Shown here: positions 1-43,408 of the stretch, piece after piece
Position numbering within the stretch: position 1 is the stretch's first letter
How the letters are laid out: every line of letters begins with the position of its first letter
DNA from: Thermoflexales bacterium
GTDB taxonomy: Bacteria; Chloroflexota; Anaerolineae; B4-G1; DUEL01
DNA: 45,865 nucleotides
NCBI GenBank assembly: GCA_014360895.1
Contig: JACIWQ010000012.1
Coordinates: forward strand, 1-45,865
Direction: 5' to 3'
Position numbers and translations under genes: made by a program
Notes under the pieces: model-generated
Databases searched by the model: none
Seen by the model: only the letters and a program-made list of their open reading frames with translations
What the model was told of the DNA's origin: nothing

Positions 1-2035
1 AAGGGGTGAAAACGGAACCAGCAGTAACAGTGGTAGGAACTGTGTGGTTCAGGAGGTTCCAGCGGTCACTGGGGGTTAGGGTGTTTCCCTGGTTGTCAAC
101 AAGGTGCACCCCTGTGTAATAATGGACCAGGATCTGGCGGTAATCTTCCCAACGGAAGTTGGGCTCCCACTGGGCTATAGGGGTCCCATCGCATCCCATC
201 TCTGCTCCATCCTCACAGCCTACGGCATTATGCCGACCCTCAATCCAATGGTTAGCGCTATGGACCCCCATTCCGGAGCTACTGTGTTCATTTTGGGAAC
301 TCACCGGGTCAAAGATGCCTTTGTGAGGGCCGTTTGGGTCACGATTATAAGTTTGCTGTCCCACATATTTGCGATATTGGAGGTCAAAAACGTTACCATT
401 ATAAGTCAAGTATCGGCCTTCTGTATCCGCTACAAAACTGCGATATTCTTCCGCTCGGGCTGAAGACCATCCAGGCCGGTATACTTGATATTGCCAATCG
501 TTAAGGCCGTAGTGAGTTATCCCATTAGTATCAGTCACAATAGAATGAGGGCACCAGTAAAGGGCCACTGTTCTTGCTGCAATAGAAAAGGCCCGCGCCA
601 TTTCAGGTTGCCAGCCCTGAAGGGATGTCTCTGCTGTGCCACCAATTTCCCCCTCTAACACCCCTCCCAGATAATTGCTCCAAGAAGGGTCATGTTGGTA
701 GACGCCTACTTCAAAGGGTATTTGCTGTACACATTCTTCAGGGGAGATTTCAGGGGGGCAATATCGCTCCCTGAAAATCCAAATTGTCCCATCATTCCCT
801 TCTTGGTATGGGCAATCACTCGAGGCAGGGGTATGAACTCCAGGGGGAGTTAAAACAAAAGGGATGACATTTTCCCCTCCTTGGCGAGGGAAGGGCTTTT
901 CCGGTTTGCTTGTGTTAGGCCCCTGACGAGATATTTCAATCACCTGCACCTTTTGTCCTGGCAACCTTGAAGTTCCATAGAGAAGCCTGTTCCCATCAGG
1001 GGACCAGGTTAAAGAGTTTTTTAATCCTCCTGGAGCTATATCTCCCTCACGGTCATCGGTCAACTGCTTCACCATTTTGGTTTCAGGGTCAAGAAAGAAA
1101 ATTTCATAAGAAAGTCCTCTCTCTTCCGTGCGTGCTATAAAGGCAAGGATTTTTCCATCCGGGGACCAGGCGAGATTCCATGGCTCCCAGGCCGAGTGCA
1201 CTTCAGCAATTAGATCCCCATCTTTATCAAGTAGGAAAATGCTATATCTAGACGAAAAGGCCAATTTGCTCCCATCAGGCGACCAGGCAAACCATCCCCA
1301 AAAGGCCCCAGTATAGGGAACGATCTTTTTAAGCTCTCGTGGCTTCTTCAGATTCACGATCCACGCTTCTCCTCCAACGGCTAAGGCTATCCTATCCCCT
1401 TGTGGGGAAAGAGCAAAAAGATTTGCTCCTTCTGGAGGAAAAAGAAGGTTAAATTTTATCCCATCCAAACTAACGCTTTTAATATAGCCATCAAATCCCA
1501 TGTAAACTAGACGGCCATCCTTCGTCCACTCTACCTGTCCTGTTTTGAGGGGTTCCGCTAATTTCCTCTTCCCTGTCCCATCAGATTTCATAACCCAAAG
1601 GGATGCACCCTTTTGAGGCTTAGGGAGGGATTGGGTATAAGCAATCCACTTCCCATCCGGAGACCAGGCATAATCCCACACCCTTTCCAGAAGCTTACTG
1701 GCATTTCTTCCTTGGGAATCAGTGATCCATAGCTCTCTTCCTCCTATCACTTGCTTCCTGAAAAGCATCCATTTGCCATCCGGGGAGAATTCAGGGGCAT
1801 AGTATTCCCTCCAGGGGTTATCTTCCAGAACTTTCCCTTCAACTTCCAGGGGATATCTCCGCATTATAATTATGCTTTCTAAGCTCTCTAACAAAGAAAA
1901 AGGCGTGGGAGTAGGCGGCGAAGGCCTCCCGGCCGAACTTATCAATGGCACCTGGCTTATCCCGATAAAGGAAAAGATGAGGAGAGCAAAAAAGAATAAC
2001 AAACCTTTTTGCTGGAGAAGTCTTTTGCCTCCCAT
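1..2035 (-). CDS. Secreted TolB-like propeller / SpoIID-domain protein (3' end outside window)
   Basis: A frame open from an ATG at 2035 to the window edge, so the C-terminus is missing. The N-terminus (MGGKRLLQQKG, then a run of F/L/I) looks like a signal peptide or membrane anchor, followed by a short P/T-rich stretch. The first 350 or so residues carry repeated propeller motifs (FSPDGKW, AWSPDGK, LSPQGD, TWSPDGN), as in TolB/WD40-like blades. A SpoIID-like domain follows: an ARAFSIAARTVALYW segment, an SSGMGVHSANHWIEG segment in place of the usual GHGxGMSQxGA, and WEDYRQILVHYYTGV. SpoIID proteins act on peptidoglycan glycan strands in sporulators. Here the role is unknown but is probably at the cell surface. 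It is the third gene of a minus-strand set with the paralogues at 2155-3404 and 3401-4548, and is less GC-rich than most of the window. An alternative start is the ATG at 1863. Confidence 0.75.
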   Translation of the reverse strand, partial: MGGKRLLQQKGLLFFFALLIFSFIGISQVPLISSAGRPSPPTPTPFSLLESLESIIIMRRYPLEVEGKVLEDNPWREYYAPEFSPDGKWMLFRKQVIGGRELWITDSQGRNASKLLERVWDYAWSPDGKWIAYTQSLPKPQKGASLWVMKSDGTGKRKLAEPLKTGQVEWTKDGRLVYMGFDGYIKSVSLDGIKFNLLFPPEGANLFALSPQGDRIALAVGGEAWIVNLKKPRELKKIVPYTGAFWGWFAWSPDGSKLAFSSRYSIFLLDKDGDLIAEVHSAWEPWNLAWSPDGKILAFIARTEERGLSYEIFFLDPETKMVKQLTDDREGDIAPGGLKNSLTWSPDGNRLLYGTSRLPGQKVQVIEISRQGPNTSKPEKPFPRQGGENVIPFVLTPPGVHTPASSDCPYQEGNDGTIWIFRERYCPPEISPEECVQQIPFEVGVYQHDPSWSNYLGGVLEGEIGGTAETSLQGWQPEMARAFSIAARTVALYWCPHSIVTDTNGITHYGLNDWQYQVYRPGWSSARAEEYRSFVADTEGRYLTYNGNVFDLQYRKYVGQQTYNRDPNGPHKGIFDPVSSQNEHSSSGMGVHSANHWIEGRHNAVGCEDGAEMGCDGTPIAQWEPNFRWEDYRQILVHYYTGVHLVDNQGNTLTPSDRWNLLNHTVPTTVTAGSVFTP

Positions 2036-2154
2036 TTTTTATTTTTATTTACTCCTTTGCAATTAAATTAGGGGTCAAACCCCTTTCCGAAGCATAATGA
2101 TAGCGCAAGGACGGCAGACTGCCAAGAAGGGGGATAGAGATGTGATGACCGGGA

Positions 2155-3404
2155 CTACATCTTGTAGCGCAGAGGGTCTTTACGTGCACCGAAGCGGCCC
2201 GATGCCAGCCAGAAGGAGAAGACGTCACGGCCCACGATGCTTTCACCAGAGACCCAGAGGCCCTGTAGCAAGAGGCGAAGGGGTTCGTGGATCTCCAGCG
2301 GGGAGCTCTGGTCCTGGACGATACCCCCTCGGGCAAGGGAGAAGCACCAGATGCTGTCCACTGGTAACCCAGGACAATGGCTTCTTCCCACCATTCCCAG
2401 GTGGATGTGTTCTGGAGCATGAGGGAAGGGGTGAAAACGGAACCAGCAGTAACAGTGGTAGGAACTGTGTGGTTCAGGAGGTTCCAGCGGTCACTGGGGG
2501 TTAGGGTGTTTCCCTGGTTGTCAACAAGGTGCACTCCTGTATAGTAATGGACCAGGATCTGGCGATAGTCTTCCCAGCGGATGGGCCAAGGCTCACCCGT
2601 GCCGTATCGGCCGGAATTGCCAAACCCCCAGCGGCTGGCTCCATTCTGGCTCATCCCTCGCTGATGAGCATTGGTCTCGGAGATAATTCCAGTAATGGCC
2701 GGGGCATAACTAATTGGGTTTTCCACACTTCGCAGGTAGCCGTAGTCGCCTGAGGCTGTTCGCAGGTAAGCGTCAGCTGAGAACTCGGCGAAAATGGGCC
2801 CTTTCCCGGGCTCAGGGGCATAGATCAGATATAGCCCTTCCGTTTCGTTCACCGCTTCCTGAACTGCCTGCTGGTATGCAGAAGAGAGTCTGTCAAAGTA
2901 ATAGGGGATGAAGACTTGAAACTGGTTGGAATTGTTGATTTCCCTCCGGCAATTTCCCCAGTAGTCCTCTCCCCCTTCATTTGCTCTTATGGCGCAGTAA
3001 GCATAGGTGCGGGAAGCGATGGCCTGAGCCCGAAGAGCCAGAGGGTGGTAAGAAGGCTCCATCTCCCGAGGGACAACATCCAAGAGATAGTCACCCTCTA
3101 TTTCCACTTGGGCCGGATTGGTGGGGTAAGGATAGGGGCGAACCTGCTCAGGAGGATAGCGACCTGAATCAAACTCTGTGCATCCATAGCGGGTGTCGGC
3201 TTCATTTTGAGGGGTAGAAGGATCATCCCATTGGCATAGAGGATTTGGTTGGTCCCAGTCAATCTCACCATTGCCTTTCAACGCATACATCATAACTGTA
3301 ATCCCTTGTTGCTCCTGAAAGTAAATGGCAATACGCTTGTATAAGGTGGGAAGAATGAACAAGGAAAAGAGGGAGAATATAGCTATGCCTTTTCTCCAGG
3401 TCAT
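2155..3404 (-). CDS. SpoIID-domain secreted protein with apparent frameshift near the C-terminus
   Basis: Start ATG at 3404 overlaps the upstream stop (ATGA) and has GGAGG five bases upstream. Residues 1-30 form an N-terminal membrane/signal segment (MTWRKGIAIFSLFSLF). The core is SpoIID-like: LALRAQAIASRTYAYCA, a HQRGMSQNGASRWG segment and WEDYRQILVHYYTGV, followed by a DRWNLLNH...TVTAGSVF linker and an Ig-like NTSTWEWW...LGYQW stretch. After about 2355 the original frame runs on to 2049, but it uses AGG/AGA codons and reads like noise. The frame one base back reads plausibly (PLEIHEPLRLLLQGLWVSG, then a stop at 2155) with strong G/C third positions. I therefore infer a one-base frameshift near 2345-2355, either a real lesion or a sequencing error, and give 2155 as the likely true end. 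Confidence 0.7.
2426..2534. repeat. Direct repeat shared with positions 1-109
   Basis: Positions 2426-2534 are identical, base for base as far as I can read, to 1-109. Similarity continues more weakly beyond. The block encodes the end of the SpoIID domain and the DRWNLLNHTVPTTVTAG linker in both neighbouring paralogues. Perfect nucleotide identity inside otherwise diverged paralogues suggests recent duplication or gene conversion. Confidence 0.85.
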
Positions 3405-40024: not shown

Positions 40025-40711
40025 TTACCGATGGGGCCAGGGAATGGCCTCTATGCGTCCCCTGTGAACGCGAGCCATTTCCGGCACGGGCCGACGGCGG
40101 CGCTCCTCCGGAGAGCGGGCGATATGGTCGGCGATGCGGAGTTGCGTCGGGGCCAGGTCCAGCGCGCAGACGACCGCGCTTTCGTCCCCCGTGGCCCCGG
40201 CGTGCACCACGCCGTGCAGTTTCCCCCAGACGATGACGTGACGACCGGCAATAATCTCCGCCCCAGCGTGGACGTCTCCGATGATGATGACGTCGCCGGG
40301 GTGTTCAATCCGTTGGCCGGAGCGGACGGTCCGCTCCACCACCAATCCGCTGACCGGGGAGGCCGGAGCGGCGGCCCCCTCCCGCTGAGGCTCTTCTTTT
40401 CCGGCGACCTCTTTCGGGCGCAGAAGGGGCAGGAGGCCCAACCGCACGGCGGCCAGGATGGTGACGTCCGCCGTGCTCTGTACGGCCCAGAGGTCCACCT
40501 CGTAGCGGGCCAGCAGGTCCCGCACCTGACGGATTCGGGCCTCGTCCAGCGCTCGGGAGCCCACGTCCAGGGCGGCGCGCCCGCCCCGGAAGAAGGCGGC
40601 CCCCTTCTCCAGCCGCCGGGCCAGGGCCTCCACCCGGGCCTCCCACGGCCCCTCCCCCAGGGTAATCAGCAGCCCCTGGCGGGTGCCTTTCACCGCAATC
40701 CCATCGTCCAT
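40025..40711 (-). CDS. minC: Septum-site-determining protein MinC
   Basis: A 228-residue inhibitor of FtsZ polymerisation. The N-terminal domain (IAVKGTRQGLLITLGEG, FFRGGRAALDVGSRAL) and the right-handed beta-helix C-terminal domain (VRSGQRIEHPGDVIIIGDV, GRHVIVWGKLHGVVHAGA, ALDLAPTQLRIAD) are both intact. A linker rich in E/A/P separates them. First gene of minC-minD-minE. Immediately upstream (25 bp) is the truncated small gene produced by the cassette insertion. Confidence 0.94.
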   Translation of the reverse strand: MDDGIAVKGTRQGLLITLGEGPWEARVEALARRLEKGAAFFRGGRAALDVGSRALDEARIRQVRDLLARYEVDLWAVQSTADVTILAAVRLGLLPLLRPKEVAGKEEPQREGAAAPASPVSGLVVERTVRSGQRIEHPGDVIIIGDVHAGAEIIAGRHVIVWGKLHGVVHAGATGDESAVVCALDLAPTQLRIADHIARSPEERRRRPVPEMARVHRGRIEAIPWPHR

Positions 40712-40735
40712 CGTGGCGGGCTCAACCCCCCGTTC

Positions 40736-40867
40736 TTACATGGCCACCAATTGCTCTATGGGCACTTCTGCCAGCCTGCTCCGCAGATATGCCTCCATCC
40801 GCTCGTCCGGCAAGCCGGCCAACTCGTGGGGGTAGCCGGTCTGACGCCTCAACTCCTGAGGCAGCAA
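40736..40867 (-). pseudogene. 3' part of a small gene split by the cassette array
   Basis: An open stretch of 44 codons ending in TAA at 40736 (reads LLPQELRRQTGYPHELAGLP, then a tail ending PIEQLVAM) with GC-rich codons like the chromosome and no start of its own at its 5' end. It begins exactly at the right-hand G|TT point of the cassette array. Joining it to the five codons ATG CCA CCT AAT GTG at 42584-42570 gives a 48-residue protein. Family unknown. Confidence 0.6.
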
Positions 40868-40922
40868 CGGCTGACGCATCGGCCGCACGCGGAGCGCGCC
40901 GGCTGAATGCGCGTATTAGAGC
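40868..40922 (-). repeat. Degenerate attC-like site of cassette 2
   Basis: From GCTCTAAT (40922-40915) to CCG (40870-40868), with imperfect arms GCGCATTCAGCCG and CGGCCGATGCGTC around a near-palindromic tip, GCGCGCTCCGCGTGC. It is shorter and more decayed than the first site; the R'' core has T in place of the final C. Confidence 0.5.
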
Positions 40923-40933
40923 ACAAAAGAACC

Positions 40934-41614
40934 CTATATCTCTGGCAGCCGTAGATCAGAATAATCACCCTGGCGAACCCTTTGCTCTCGCTGCTCCCTC
41001 GCCTTCAAACCATCGTATATGACATAGAGAAGCGTCTCAGCGCCTTCAGGCGGCGTAACAGGGGAAAAATAAGTAACCCCGCCTGTATAGTGCTGCTCAA
41101 CCCAATTGAGCACTTCCTCTATAGCGGCCAAGGCCTCCCTGACCTTTTCGCGGCTTGCAACTGCCAGAGGTTGAGCATTCTGGGCAAGCACAAGATGCAA
41201 ATTCCGATGAGCAATCCGACGATTCCTCCAATCTCGTGAGAATTCTGCGGCCTTTAACGCCTTCTCCACCAGCGAATCAAGTTCTTGAAGTTCTTGGTTG
41301 CCCACAAGCTCGGGTAAGCGCCGAATCGTCAAATTAGGCTTCCCTACAGATTTAGGCGGATCCGTCAGTCTGGCAATATGCATCAAAATGTCATGCCAGA
41401 GAGCATCTTGCACAACACGGAAGAACAAAGGGGCGGCCTTGTTTAGCAAATCGACCCTGGAGGGTTTCTTGCCGAATAGTTCAACATACTCTTGCCACTT
41501 CACGTGAAGCCAAGCAACTTCTTGCCATAGTGCGTAAAAGAGCGCCCCTAATGGCTCTCCCATCCGCTCAATGTAGTAACGTTTTGTTTCCGTGGCCGTA
41601 CGATAGTGGCACAT
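40934..41614 (-). CDS. AbiU2-like HEPN protein (abortive infection)
   Basis: A 226-residue protein. The N-terminal helices (ALWQEVAWLHVKWQEYVELFG), LFFRVVQDALWHDILMHIARL, LTDPPKSVGKPNLTIRRLPEL and DWRNRRIAHRNLHL match the AbiU2 domain family. RNRRIAH gives the HEPN ribonuclease motif R130-N131...H136. Such proteins are presumed RNases that stop growth on phage infection. Start 41614 has AGGTGG upstream; ATG 41563 is an alternative. It is the only gene of cassette 2, 12 bp before its attC-like end, and clearly AT-richer than the min genes. Confidence 0.85.
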   Translation of the reverse strand: MCHYRTATETKRYYIERMGEPLGALFYALWQEVAWLHVKWQEYVELFGKKPSRVDLLNKAAPLFFRVVQDALWHDILMHIARLTDPPKSVGKPNLTIRRLPELVGNQELQELDSLVEKALKAAEFSRDWRNRRIAHRNLHLVLAQNAQPLAVASREKVREALAAIEEVLNWVEQHYTGGVTYFSPVTPPEGAETLLYVIYDGLKAREQREQRVRQGDYSDLRLPEI

Positions 41615-41626
41615 CTCACCACCTGC

Positions 41627-41711
41627 GCTCTAACGGCACCGAGCTCAGCCGCTGCGACCGAGGCGGCGAAGCCGCCGAGGGAGCAGTTGGCTGGAGCGAG
41701 ATGTTAGGCGT
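41627..41711 (-). repeat. attC-like recombination site of cassette 1
   Basis: Read on the minus strand: GCACGCCTAAC (R''), arm GCTCCAGCCAACTGC, central palindrome GGCGGCTTCGCCGCC, returning arm GCAGCGGCTGAGC, then GTGCCG|TTAGAGC (R' of the next cassette). The arms pair with a few unpaired extra bases, as in attC folds, and the total is about 80 bp, within the attC size range. Confidence 0.7.
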
Positions 41712-41715
41712 GCTC

Positions 41716-42540
41716 TCAAAATGGAATCTCTTCATCAAGCGTCTCATAGGAGAGCGAAGCTTTTTCCGCCCGCGCCTCGAGAGCTTTAATGAAACGGATT
41801 GTGCCCACGATATGGTTAAAGATAAAGAAACTTTCCTCATAATTGAGTAGTGGGTTATCGTGAGCGAGAGTCCTTTCATTACGTACGCGATTGAACGCTT
41901 CCATTATGCTAATACTGGACTTCAGAATGCGTTCGGTCATCTCAGATTCAATGAGTCCTGCTTTGCGAAGTGCTTTTACGTATTCGCCAAATATACTGTG
42001 CAGTGGCTTGTCTCTCTCCACAGAAATGCCACGCTTCTGAGCGAAGGTTCGAACCAATTTTGTGACGTAGGTATGTAACCGGTCGAGACCTGCTTCGGGT
42101 TGGTTGTTTTCTATGGATTCGCGTACCGAACGCGCTAGAACCTCAAAGTTCTGGTCATCTCCTTCTGGCGTAATGGCCTCAATTACCTCAATAGAAACGC
42201 TCTCCAATAGACGGGCTGCGATGCGTTGGCATTCCTCAAACAGGCGAGCGTGCTCAATATCTCCCGCCGCTTGTTGGTAGTAAAAAGTCTCTCGGTAATA
42301 CTCCAAGAGGTCACTAAGCAGCTTGCCTACAACGTGATTTGGTTCCTGATTCCAGAAAGCGCGTAAGCGATTGGCCTTTGAGCCGCTGGCGTAATCGTAC
42401 TTGGTATCGTAGATGTTTCGGCCAGTGCTTTCCGCGACAAACTCGGCAAACGTCCGGTTCGAGAAATCCAAGACATAGCCGCTGCCCATCCGTAACAGCT
42501 TCTCCAGCTTGGTCTTCTCGATAAAGCTCAAATCAGCCAT
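41716..42540 (-). CDS. Abortive-infection family protein with C-terminal HEPN (Abi_C-like)
   Basis: A 274-residue protein. The N-terminal half contains LEKLLRMGSGYVLDFSNRTF and GSKANRLRAFW, typical of an AbiJ/NTD-type module in abortive-infection proteins. The C-terminal half matches the Abi_C HEPN fold: PLHSIFGEYVKALRKAGLIE, then SSISIMEAFNRVRNERTLAH with R220-N221...H227, and FIFNHIVGTIRFIKALE. It is probably an infection-triggered RNase. The start at 42540 lies 30 bp inside cassette 1 with no Shine-Dalgarno. Codon use is AT-rich compared with HIT and min genes, pointing to transfer. Confidence 0.85.
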   Translation of the reverse strand: MADLSFIEKTKLEKLLRMGSGYVLDFSNRTFAEFVAESTGRNIYDTKYDYASGSKANRLRAFWNQEPNHVVGKLLSDLLEYYRETFYYQQAAGDIEHARLFEECQRIAARLLESVSIEVIEAITPEGDDQNFEVLARSVRESIENNQPEAGLDRLHTYVTKLVRTFAQKRGISVERDKPLHSIFGEYVKALRKAGLIESEMTERILKSSISIMEAFNRVRNERTLAHDNPLLNYEESFFIFNHIVGTIRFIKALEARAEKASLSYETLDEEIPF

Positions 42541-42573
42541 AGGTGCGTTCTCACGAGGTGCACGCCTAACACA

Positions 42574-42741
42574 TTAGGTGGCATCCCGCAGGTTTCGCCC
42601 ACCCATCACGTCCAGCACTACCCGCCGCACCACGTCCGCTCCCATTTGGCGCACAAATCCCGCGCCGCGCGCTTCCAGCAACTCTCTGAGCATCGGCGGG
42701 ACAAGGGTTCCCAGAGCCGGTCTATCGGTCACCGTCATCAT
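42574..42741 (-). CDS. Small unrecognised protein upstream of the cassette insertion
   Basis: A 55-residue frame (MMTVTDRPALGTLVPPMLRE ... VLDVMGGRNLRDAT) with chromosomal, GC-rich codons. Its start overlaps the stop of the open stretch upstream (TGATG) and its end overlaps the ATG of the split 48-residue gene (ATGCCACCTAA). Such chained small genes suggest an old operon, now interrupted by the cassette array. It may be an N-terminal remnant. No family recognised. Confidence 0.45.
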   Translation of the reverse strand: MMTVTDRPALGTLVPPMLRELLEARGAGFVRQMGADVVRRVVLDVMGGRNLRDAT

Positions 42742-42872
42742 CAGAACAAAAGCCCCTGCTTGACCTGAGGTGGTTCGCAGTTCACGTACAAAACCTCCAT
42801 CGCCGCCTTATCCATCCATTCCACAATCTCCCGCCGAATCACGTCTACATACCGGGGCTCCTTCTCAAGCAG
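42741..42872 (-). pseudogene. Unrecognised coding remnant after the HIT gene
   Basis: An open stretch without a good start codon, directly after the HIT stop and in the same frame: EKEPRYVDVIRREIVEWMDK ... EVLYVNCEPPQVKQGLLF, ending TGA that overlaps the next ATG. It looks like real protein sequence and may be the C-terminal part of a decayed gene. Confidence 0.4.
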
Positions 42873-43373
42873 TCAGCCTCTGGGCGCATACGCCTCAAAC
42901 AGCGGGCGCAGCCGCCGGTACGTGTCGTCCAGCCACTCCGGAATGGTGCGGGTGTGGCCGACGACGCTCATATAGTTGGTGTCCCCGCCCCAGCGGGGGA
43001 CGACATGGAGATGGACATGGTCGGCGACCCCCGCCCCGGCGGCCGTCCCGATGTTTAGCCCCACGTTGAACCCCTGCGGGTTGTAGGCCTCCCGCAGCAC
43101 CCGCAGGCTGGTCTGCGTCAGTGCCATCCACTCCGCCAGCGTCGGCCCGTCCAGGTCCTCCAGCGAGGGAACATGAGCGTAAGGGACAACCATTAGGTGG
43201 CCGTTGTTGTACGGGAAGCGGTTGAGGACGACGTAGCAGAGGCGCCCCCGGTAAACGATGTGCGCTTCCTCGTCCGGCTGGCGGGGCTTCAGGCAAAACA
43301 GGCACTCCTGCGGCAGCGGCTGCTCGCCCCGCAGGTAGGCCATGCGCCACGGAGTCCAGAGAATGTCACTCAT
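42873..43373 (-). CDS. HIT-family hydrolase/phosphorylase
   Basis: A 166-residue nucleotide-binding enzyme with the histidine triad HVHLH (119-123, in ADHVHLHVVPRW), the upstream NRFPYNNGHLMVVPYAH segment and a CLFC pair near residue 24-27. The start MSDILWTPWRMAYL is typical of the Ap4A phosphorylase/FHIT-like branch that hydrolyses dinucleoside polyphosphates or nucleotide adducts. Start 43373 directly follows an 8-nt repeat; no Shine-Dalgarno. Confidence 0.92.
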   Translation of the reverse strand: MSDILWTPWRMAYLRGEQPLPQECLFCLKPRQPDEEAHIVYRGRLCYVVLNRFPYNNGHLMVVPYAHVPSLEDLDGPTLAEWMALTQTSLRVLREAYNPQGFNVGLNIGTAAGAGVADHVHLHVVPRWGGDTNYMSVVGHTRTIPEWLDDTYRRLRPLFEAYAPRG

Positions 43374-43408
43374 AATGACCGAATGACCCAATGACCGAAT
43401 GACGGAAT
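43374..43408. repeat. 8-nt iterated repeat abutting the HIT start
   Basis: Minus-strand units TCATTCCG, TCATTCGG, TCATTGGG, TCATTCGG, TCATT run straight into ATG 43373. The family is shared with the ruvA leader (19258-19294). Confidence 0.88.

Follow-up and report, generated by a model that had tools for sequence, protein, structure and literature searches.

The minus strand of positions 40868-42569 is confirmed, by attC models and by the sequence of the junctions, as two integron-type gene cassettes in series, flanked on both sides by host sequence. The positions refer to the window, that is, the whole 45,865-nucleotide stretch of DNA that was analysed. The cassettes are not placed at an attI site and, as judged by alignment to an intact homologue, lie inside a CfrBI-type restriction enzyme (REase) gene. 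An earlier note on this DNA had proposed the same span, and the junction sequence agrees with it to the base; the location of the cassettes inside a broken restriction-modification (R-M) locus had been missed. Taken jointly, cassette identity, a non-attI location and insertion by an integron integrase make up a reading that we consider rather probable on the sequence evidence. The features on which it is built are collected in Table 1, where a slash marks the break between two joined segments.

Table 1. Positions of the cassettes, attC sites, genes and gene remnants in the window.
Feature	Positions	Strand	Evidence
HIT-family gene, conserved left edge of variable locus	42873..43391	-	PF01230; synteny
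Partner N6/N4 DNA methylase remnant, last ~43 codons	42741..42868	-	translation LEKEPRYVDVIRREIVEWMDKAAMEVLYVNCEPPQVKQGLLF* against G001 methylase C-terminus
CfrBI-type REase remnant, codons 1-56, then stop just before junction	42570..42740	-	70% identity to G001; PF09516 in intact G001 homologue
Left junction, host ACCTAATGT G/TTAGGC, short CCTAA/TTAGG palindrome	42564..42579	.	sequence; weak model matches, 7.6 and 6.1 bits
Gene cassette 1, Abi_C gene (TTAGGCGTGC ... attC1 ... CCG)	41634..42569	-	exact junctions by sequence; attC1 by models R1/R2
Abi_C-domain protein, 274 aa, HEPN-like motif R-N-E-R-T-L-A-H intact	41716..42540	-	PF14355, E 9.7e-11
attC1: R'' GCCTAAC, L'' GCTCcAGCC, L' GGCTGAGC, R' GTTAGAGC	41627..41709	-	R1, R2, congener identity, fold
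Gene cassette 2, HEPN_AbiU2 gene (TTAGAGCGC ... attC2 ... CAGCCG)	40868..41633	-	exact junctions by sequence
HEPN_AbiU2 protein, 226 aa, motif R130-N-R-R-I-A-H136 intact	40934..41614	-	PF18734, E 1.9e-33
attC2, degenerate: R'' CTCTAAT, R' G/TTGCTG (last six bases = host)	40862..40921	-	R2, R1, relative identity
CfrBI-type REase remnant, C-terminal codons, homology from TTGCTG	40737..40867	-	alignment to intact homologue
minC, conserved right edge of variable locus	40025..40711	-	PF03775/PF05209; synteny

Cassette junctions and attC sites

Along the minus strand the breaks fall between G42570 and T42569, between G41634 and T41633, and between G40868 and T40867, and both outer junctions have the form G/TT. 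Cassette 1 follows host sequence ending in GATGCCACCTAATGTG (42570) and runs from TTAGGCGTGC (from 42569) through the Abi_C ORF (42540-41716), the R'' core GCACGCCTAAC (41713-41703) and a hairpin to CCG (41634). Cassette 2 starts with TTAGAGC (from 41633) and continues through the HEPN_AbiU2 ORF (41614-40934), the R'' core GCTCTAAT (to 40915) and a hairpin to CAGCCG (40868), after which the host resumes with TTGCTG (from 40867). There is one open frame per cassette, and a search for a sigma-70-like promoter serving the cassettes revealed none. With a GC content of 50-52% against 67%, and a GC3 of about 53% against 83-87%, the cassettes are foreign in composition.

The matching of each TTRRRY-type cassette start with its own R'' core, on which the earlier note had built its case, is borne out and extends over 10 bases in cassette 1 and 7 bases in cassette 2. 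A scan of the whole window for GTT...AA[CT] pairs of at least 10 bases, spaced 300-1500 bases apart, found just one other start/core pair as long as that of cassette 1 in 45.9 kb. Because of this second pair the match is suggestive, not decisive, and needed independent support; cassette identity is decided by the attC evidence and not by the start/R'' match alone.

Since an Rfam search of the cassette region matched no family, the attC models were purpose-built. Model R1 was trained on 9 attC sites from class-1 integrons and a cyanobacterial plasmid and on 3 sites from other contigs of the same genome, with the terminal loops of the training sites trimmed and the sites of the window left out, while model R2 was built from 30 attC matches in related genomes. 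The first site, attC1, is the window's sole R1 match (27.2 bits, E 2e-4) and comes first among its R2 matches (48.6 bits, E 2.6e-10), the E-values of these models being rough. Over the 3.57-Mb genome R1 gave 4 matches, attC1 and the three training sites from that genome, where such genome-wide scans score pre-selected candidates (150 of 3382 in the first pass). Furthermore, attC1 is identical at 77 of 82 aligned bases (94%) to an attC on contig C6 of G002, a genome of the same genus, and the two sites agree in their L''/L' arms and in a large part of the loop. From these model scores and the congener identity it is, for practical purposes, certain that attC1 is an attC site.

The second site, attC2, whose R'' reads AAT, scored 16.1 bits with R2 (rough E 0.05, rank 2 in the window) and 9.0 bits with R1. 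It is identical at 48 of 58 bases (83%) to an attC of an order-level relative (G024:C287), with an alignment score of 33.4 against a shuffle maximum of 11.1, and is most likely a decayed attC. Among the outcomes that, according to the earlier note, would speak against cassettes were the lack of any score with attC models and the lack of matching cores at homologous loci; both checks were run, and neither outcome was obtained. The note had also proposed folding the bottom strands, and at both sites these fold as hairpins with one-sided extrahelical bulges between L'' and L'. The folding energy is unremarkable against shuffled sequence for either site (z -1.8 for attC1 and -0.05 for attC2) and, being significant at neither, was dropped as attC evidence.

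Further sites were found when R1 was run over 41 related genomes, several of them grouped on single contigs, and for 9 of the 30 attC matches inspected in relatives the upstream GTT start agrees with the R'' flank at 9 of 9 bases. Six attC-model matches are present in the 97%-complete, 30-contig assembly of G002, one each on contigs C6, C10, C19, C21, C27 and C32; five of the six are 64 bases long, and they may be isolated cassettes or, alternatively, copies of an attC-like repeat dispersed through the genome.

The restriction-modification locus and integron parts elsewhere in the genome

The intact reference for the broken REase is a 375-aa homologue in G001, a further member of the genus. 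On the right-hand side the REase homology resumes exactly at G/TTGCTG, at the base after the predicted cut, and codons 57-324, corresponding to ~268 codons or about 800 bases, are gone. Most of the partner methylase is lost as well. At the left junction there is a scar of ~7 bases (TAATGTG) that matches neither the REase of the congeners nor attI. No attI similarity was detected at the window flank (score 9.0 against a shuffle mean of 8.3), and an attI remnant at the left flank was rejected on that score. A reading in which the REase homology runs on into attC2, as residues M-R, was likewise rejected, because a YW upstream is conserved among relatives and the distance to the LL pair is off by two residues.

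Comparison of the window (40711-42873) with G001-G006 shows that the stretch from the HIT gene to minC is a variable insertion locus in this genus, in which the two genes may be adjacent or separated by an R-M system, sugar genes or, as here, cassettes. The whole R-M system and a HEPN gene are found there in G001, and parts of the same R-M set, on two contigs, in G003; HIT and minC are adjacent in G002 and G004, and sugar-metabolism genes occupy the locus in G006.

The cassettes had been described as having no integrase. This is correct for the window and its contig, where no IntI-family match was obtained, but not for the genome. A search of the rest of the assembly for IntI and further attC sites revealed, on contig C56, a full-length integron integrase gene (1726-2727, plus strand; TIGR02249, 470 bits), with a probable attI, two attC sites and an ACT-domain cassette upstream of it, and another attC on contig C1. 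The intI and attI of a complete integron are consequently on C56 and not beside the cassettes. An integrase-less cluster is defined by at least two attC sites and no intI nearby; here the contig gives no intI match, and the second attC is weak at its 16.1 bits.

In alignment, the C56 IntI keeps the conserved catalytic residues that are common to the G007 IntI and class-1 IntI1, and it has two 8-residue in-frame insertions that are absent from both. The insertions are located near the catalytic histidine-arginine and tyrosine boxes and are encoded by short palindromic DNA, and the activity of this IntI is uncertain because of them. On the 80-kb contig C1 there is a near-copy of the C56 attI, 130 bases in length (1620-1800 of the locus, minus strand), and after it one cassette (838-1671, minus strand) with its attC and without intI, an arrangement that is, by its sequence, a second integrase-less integron relic. 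The protein of the C1 cassette has 252 aa and belongs to no Pfam family. The source genome is a single assembly of 262 contigs, so that misbinning of C56 is possible in principle, and the near-copy of the same attI on C1 weakens this possibility. Across the phylum, an IntI match at E of 1e-60 or below is present in 45 of 400 sampled genomes, so that the gene is by no means rare, with an attC within 1.5 kb in just a few. Reviews have already recorded integrons in Chloroflexota (PMC8618304, PMC2426708), and the earlier view that integron cassettes are little described in that phylum needs correcting.

Genes carried by the cassettes

The assignment of the two genes as AbiU2-like and Abi_C-like, carried as integron-type cassettes, stands. 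The AbiU2 protein matches its profile PF18734 at 116 bits (cut-off 26.8) and the Abi_C protein matches PF14355 at 42.1 bits (cut-off 24). Both genes are intact and both products keep an Rx4-6H motif (R130/H136 in AbiU2, RNERTLAH in Abi_C); in AbiU2 the residues R130, N131 and R133-H136 are invariant in alignment with two homologues. The retention of these motifs in both proteins suggests RNase-type abortive infection as the function, which we regard as likely for both genes, and for an anti-phage function considered alone we lean moderately in favour. The AlphaFold model of the Abi_C protein is all helical with low confidence (mean pLDDT 53) and that of the AbiU2 protein is also of low confidence (pLDDT 46), values too poor to confirm a HEPN fold for either protein. 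A PADLOC search returned no defence family for either.

Matches to AbiU2 occur in 10 and matches to Abi_C in 3 of 396 genomes of the class, this genome included. Neither gene was found in six congeners, and none of the relatives searched has close homologues of both, so that a further outcome named in the earlier note, relatives with the two genes but lacking these boundaries, did not arise. Homologues of Abi_C that are 52% identical are present on proteobacterial plasmids, where the model detected no attC, and no Abi_C relatives were found on viral contigs. An AbiU2 homologue on a Xanthomonas campestris plasmid (NZ_CP066935.1) has an attC on either side (21.5 and 35.3 bits), and by these model matches AbiU2-type genes ride as cassettes in two distant lineages, in this genome and independently on the Xanthomonas plasmid. 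The family is nevertheless not tied to integrons, since the model found no attC at the 58% identical AbiU2 homologue in G459, at the AbiU2 homologues of viral contigs or in the phage record. In a Chlorobiota MAG (JAADIB010000118.1, 4001-5100 of the locus) a 49% identical AbiU2 gene is situated between GTTAGGGCGCA and CTCTAAC-GTTAGCT junctions and is followed by an apparent second, truncated cassette; these junctions are cassette-like by eye, without attC-model support.

Possible routes of insertion and relation to known systems

In the history that we favour, two promoterless cassettes, each consisting of one abortive-infection gene (an AbiU2-type HEPN and a HEPN-like Abi_C, respectively) and its own attC, would have been inserted by an integron integrase that acted in trans. 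The most likely candidate is the IntI native to the lineage, the gene of which is now on C56. The target would have been a non-attI G/TT site in the CfrBI-type REase gene, as in attG insertion. Insertion together with the loss of REase codons 57-324 would have killed the R-M system, with decay of the methylase afterwards. Cells are harmed by a restriction enzyme whose methylase is missing, and from this general knowledge of R-M systems the loss of the REase probably preceded the decay of the methylase. Both genes would now form an integrase-less cassette cluster in the variable HIT-minC locus, and each product is a predicted RNase that may damage cell or phage RNA upon infection. The cassettes, their attC sites, the broken REase and the resident IntI gene are present in the DNA; from them we infer the insertion in trans, the order of events, the RNase and anti-phage activity and the mode of expression. 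Against this history it can be said that, after a single clean attG insertion, the REase sequence should continue without a gap on either side of the cassettes, whereas the left side has a deletion and the 7-base scar. The weakness of attC2, the insertions in the C56 IntI, the possible misbinning of C56, the negative promoter and PADLOC searches and the poor structure models also count against it. A wider proposition is that resident integrases in this lineage routinely scatter single cassettes into ordinary chromosomal loci, and that here cassettes with two RNase-type genes replaced and destroyed an R-M operon; we put this forward tentatively and regard it as doubtful.

The left junction, a scar with a deletion beside it, could also be read as the trace of a complete integron once present at this locus, from which intI and attI were deleted so that the last two cassettes were left. 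That integrons decay in this genome is implied by the attI copy and cassette without intI on C1. Against such a relic stand the position inside a restriction gene, with the homology resuming exactly at the recombination point, the lack of attI similarity at the window flank and the lack of an IntI-family match on the contig, and we regard the explanation as unlikely. The G/TT form at both junctions is, on the other hand, in line with a variant of the favoured history in which a single event both inserted the cassettes and deleted REase sequence, IntI having joined two secondary G/TT sites, or a two-site cassette molecule, with replacement of the REase core. We consider this variant quite improbable, since congeners read GATGCTG and not GATGTTG at the left point and the 7 bases at that junction are unaccounted for. 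Finally, ordinary defence genes that arrived with the R-M locus by general recombination, with coincidental hairpins, might be suspected from the proteobacterial plasmids on which Abi_C homologues neighbour methylases, of Eco57I type or others, and lack an attC in the vicinity, from AbiU2 in R-M operons (PMC3710099) and from the locus being a hot spot for unrelated inserts, but the cassette edges fall on G/TT points, the right one being the edge of REase homology, and the close identity of attC1 to the attC of a congener and its R2 score leave this highly improbable and, for cassette 1, nearly refuted.

The locus can be compared with several known systems. Clusters of cassettes that lack a nearby integrase (CALINs) are frequent (PMC12444791, PMC9668308), and the present locus resembles them in having two tandem, same-orientation cassettes with attC and no intI nearby. 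It differs in that there are just two cassettes, that the second attC is degenerate, that they are situated inside a restriction gene and that an integrase is found elsewhere in the genome. Insertion of cassettes into genomes at attG-type sites is, as the work of Loot et al. 2024 is cited in PMC12444791 and PMC12901181, an established reaction, and the joining of cassettes to non-attI chromosomal DNA at G/TT is similar to it; here, however, ~800 bases of the target are lost, a 7-base scar is left, and the case is known from one genome only.

With regard to the cargo, the presence of HEPN genes in integron cassettes has been on record since 2013 (PMC3710099), and integrons are, according to the citation of Darracq et al. 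2025 in PMC13064858, stores of anti-phage systems. The HEPN cassette proteins (PDB 3jrt family; PMC3710099) and the anti-phage systems of chromosomal integrons (Darracq et al. 2025) share with our locus the carriage of HEPN or abortive-infection genes as cassettes, whereas the families here are AbiU2 (PF18734) and Abi_C (PF14355), with a predicted anti-phage role. In the open-access literature searched we found no earlier report of AbiU2 as an integron cassette. The Xanthomonas campestris plasmid cassette is alike in having an AbiU2-family gene between two attC sites, and differs in being plasmid-borne, in belonging to another phylum and in its protein identity of 38-39%.

Overall, the locus is a well-marked new example of a known mobile unit rather than a new mechanism. 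It is a natural case, precise to the base, of cassettes located outside an integron and in a lineage remote from the Proteobacteria that are the usual setting. The target gene, an integrase gene of the same genome and congeners lacking the insert are all known for it, and the related genomes with many lone attC sites provide a group in which trans insertion of cassettes can be tested directly.
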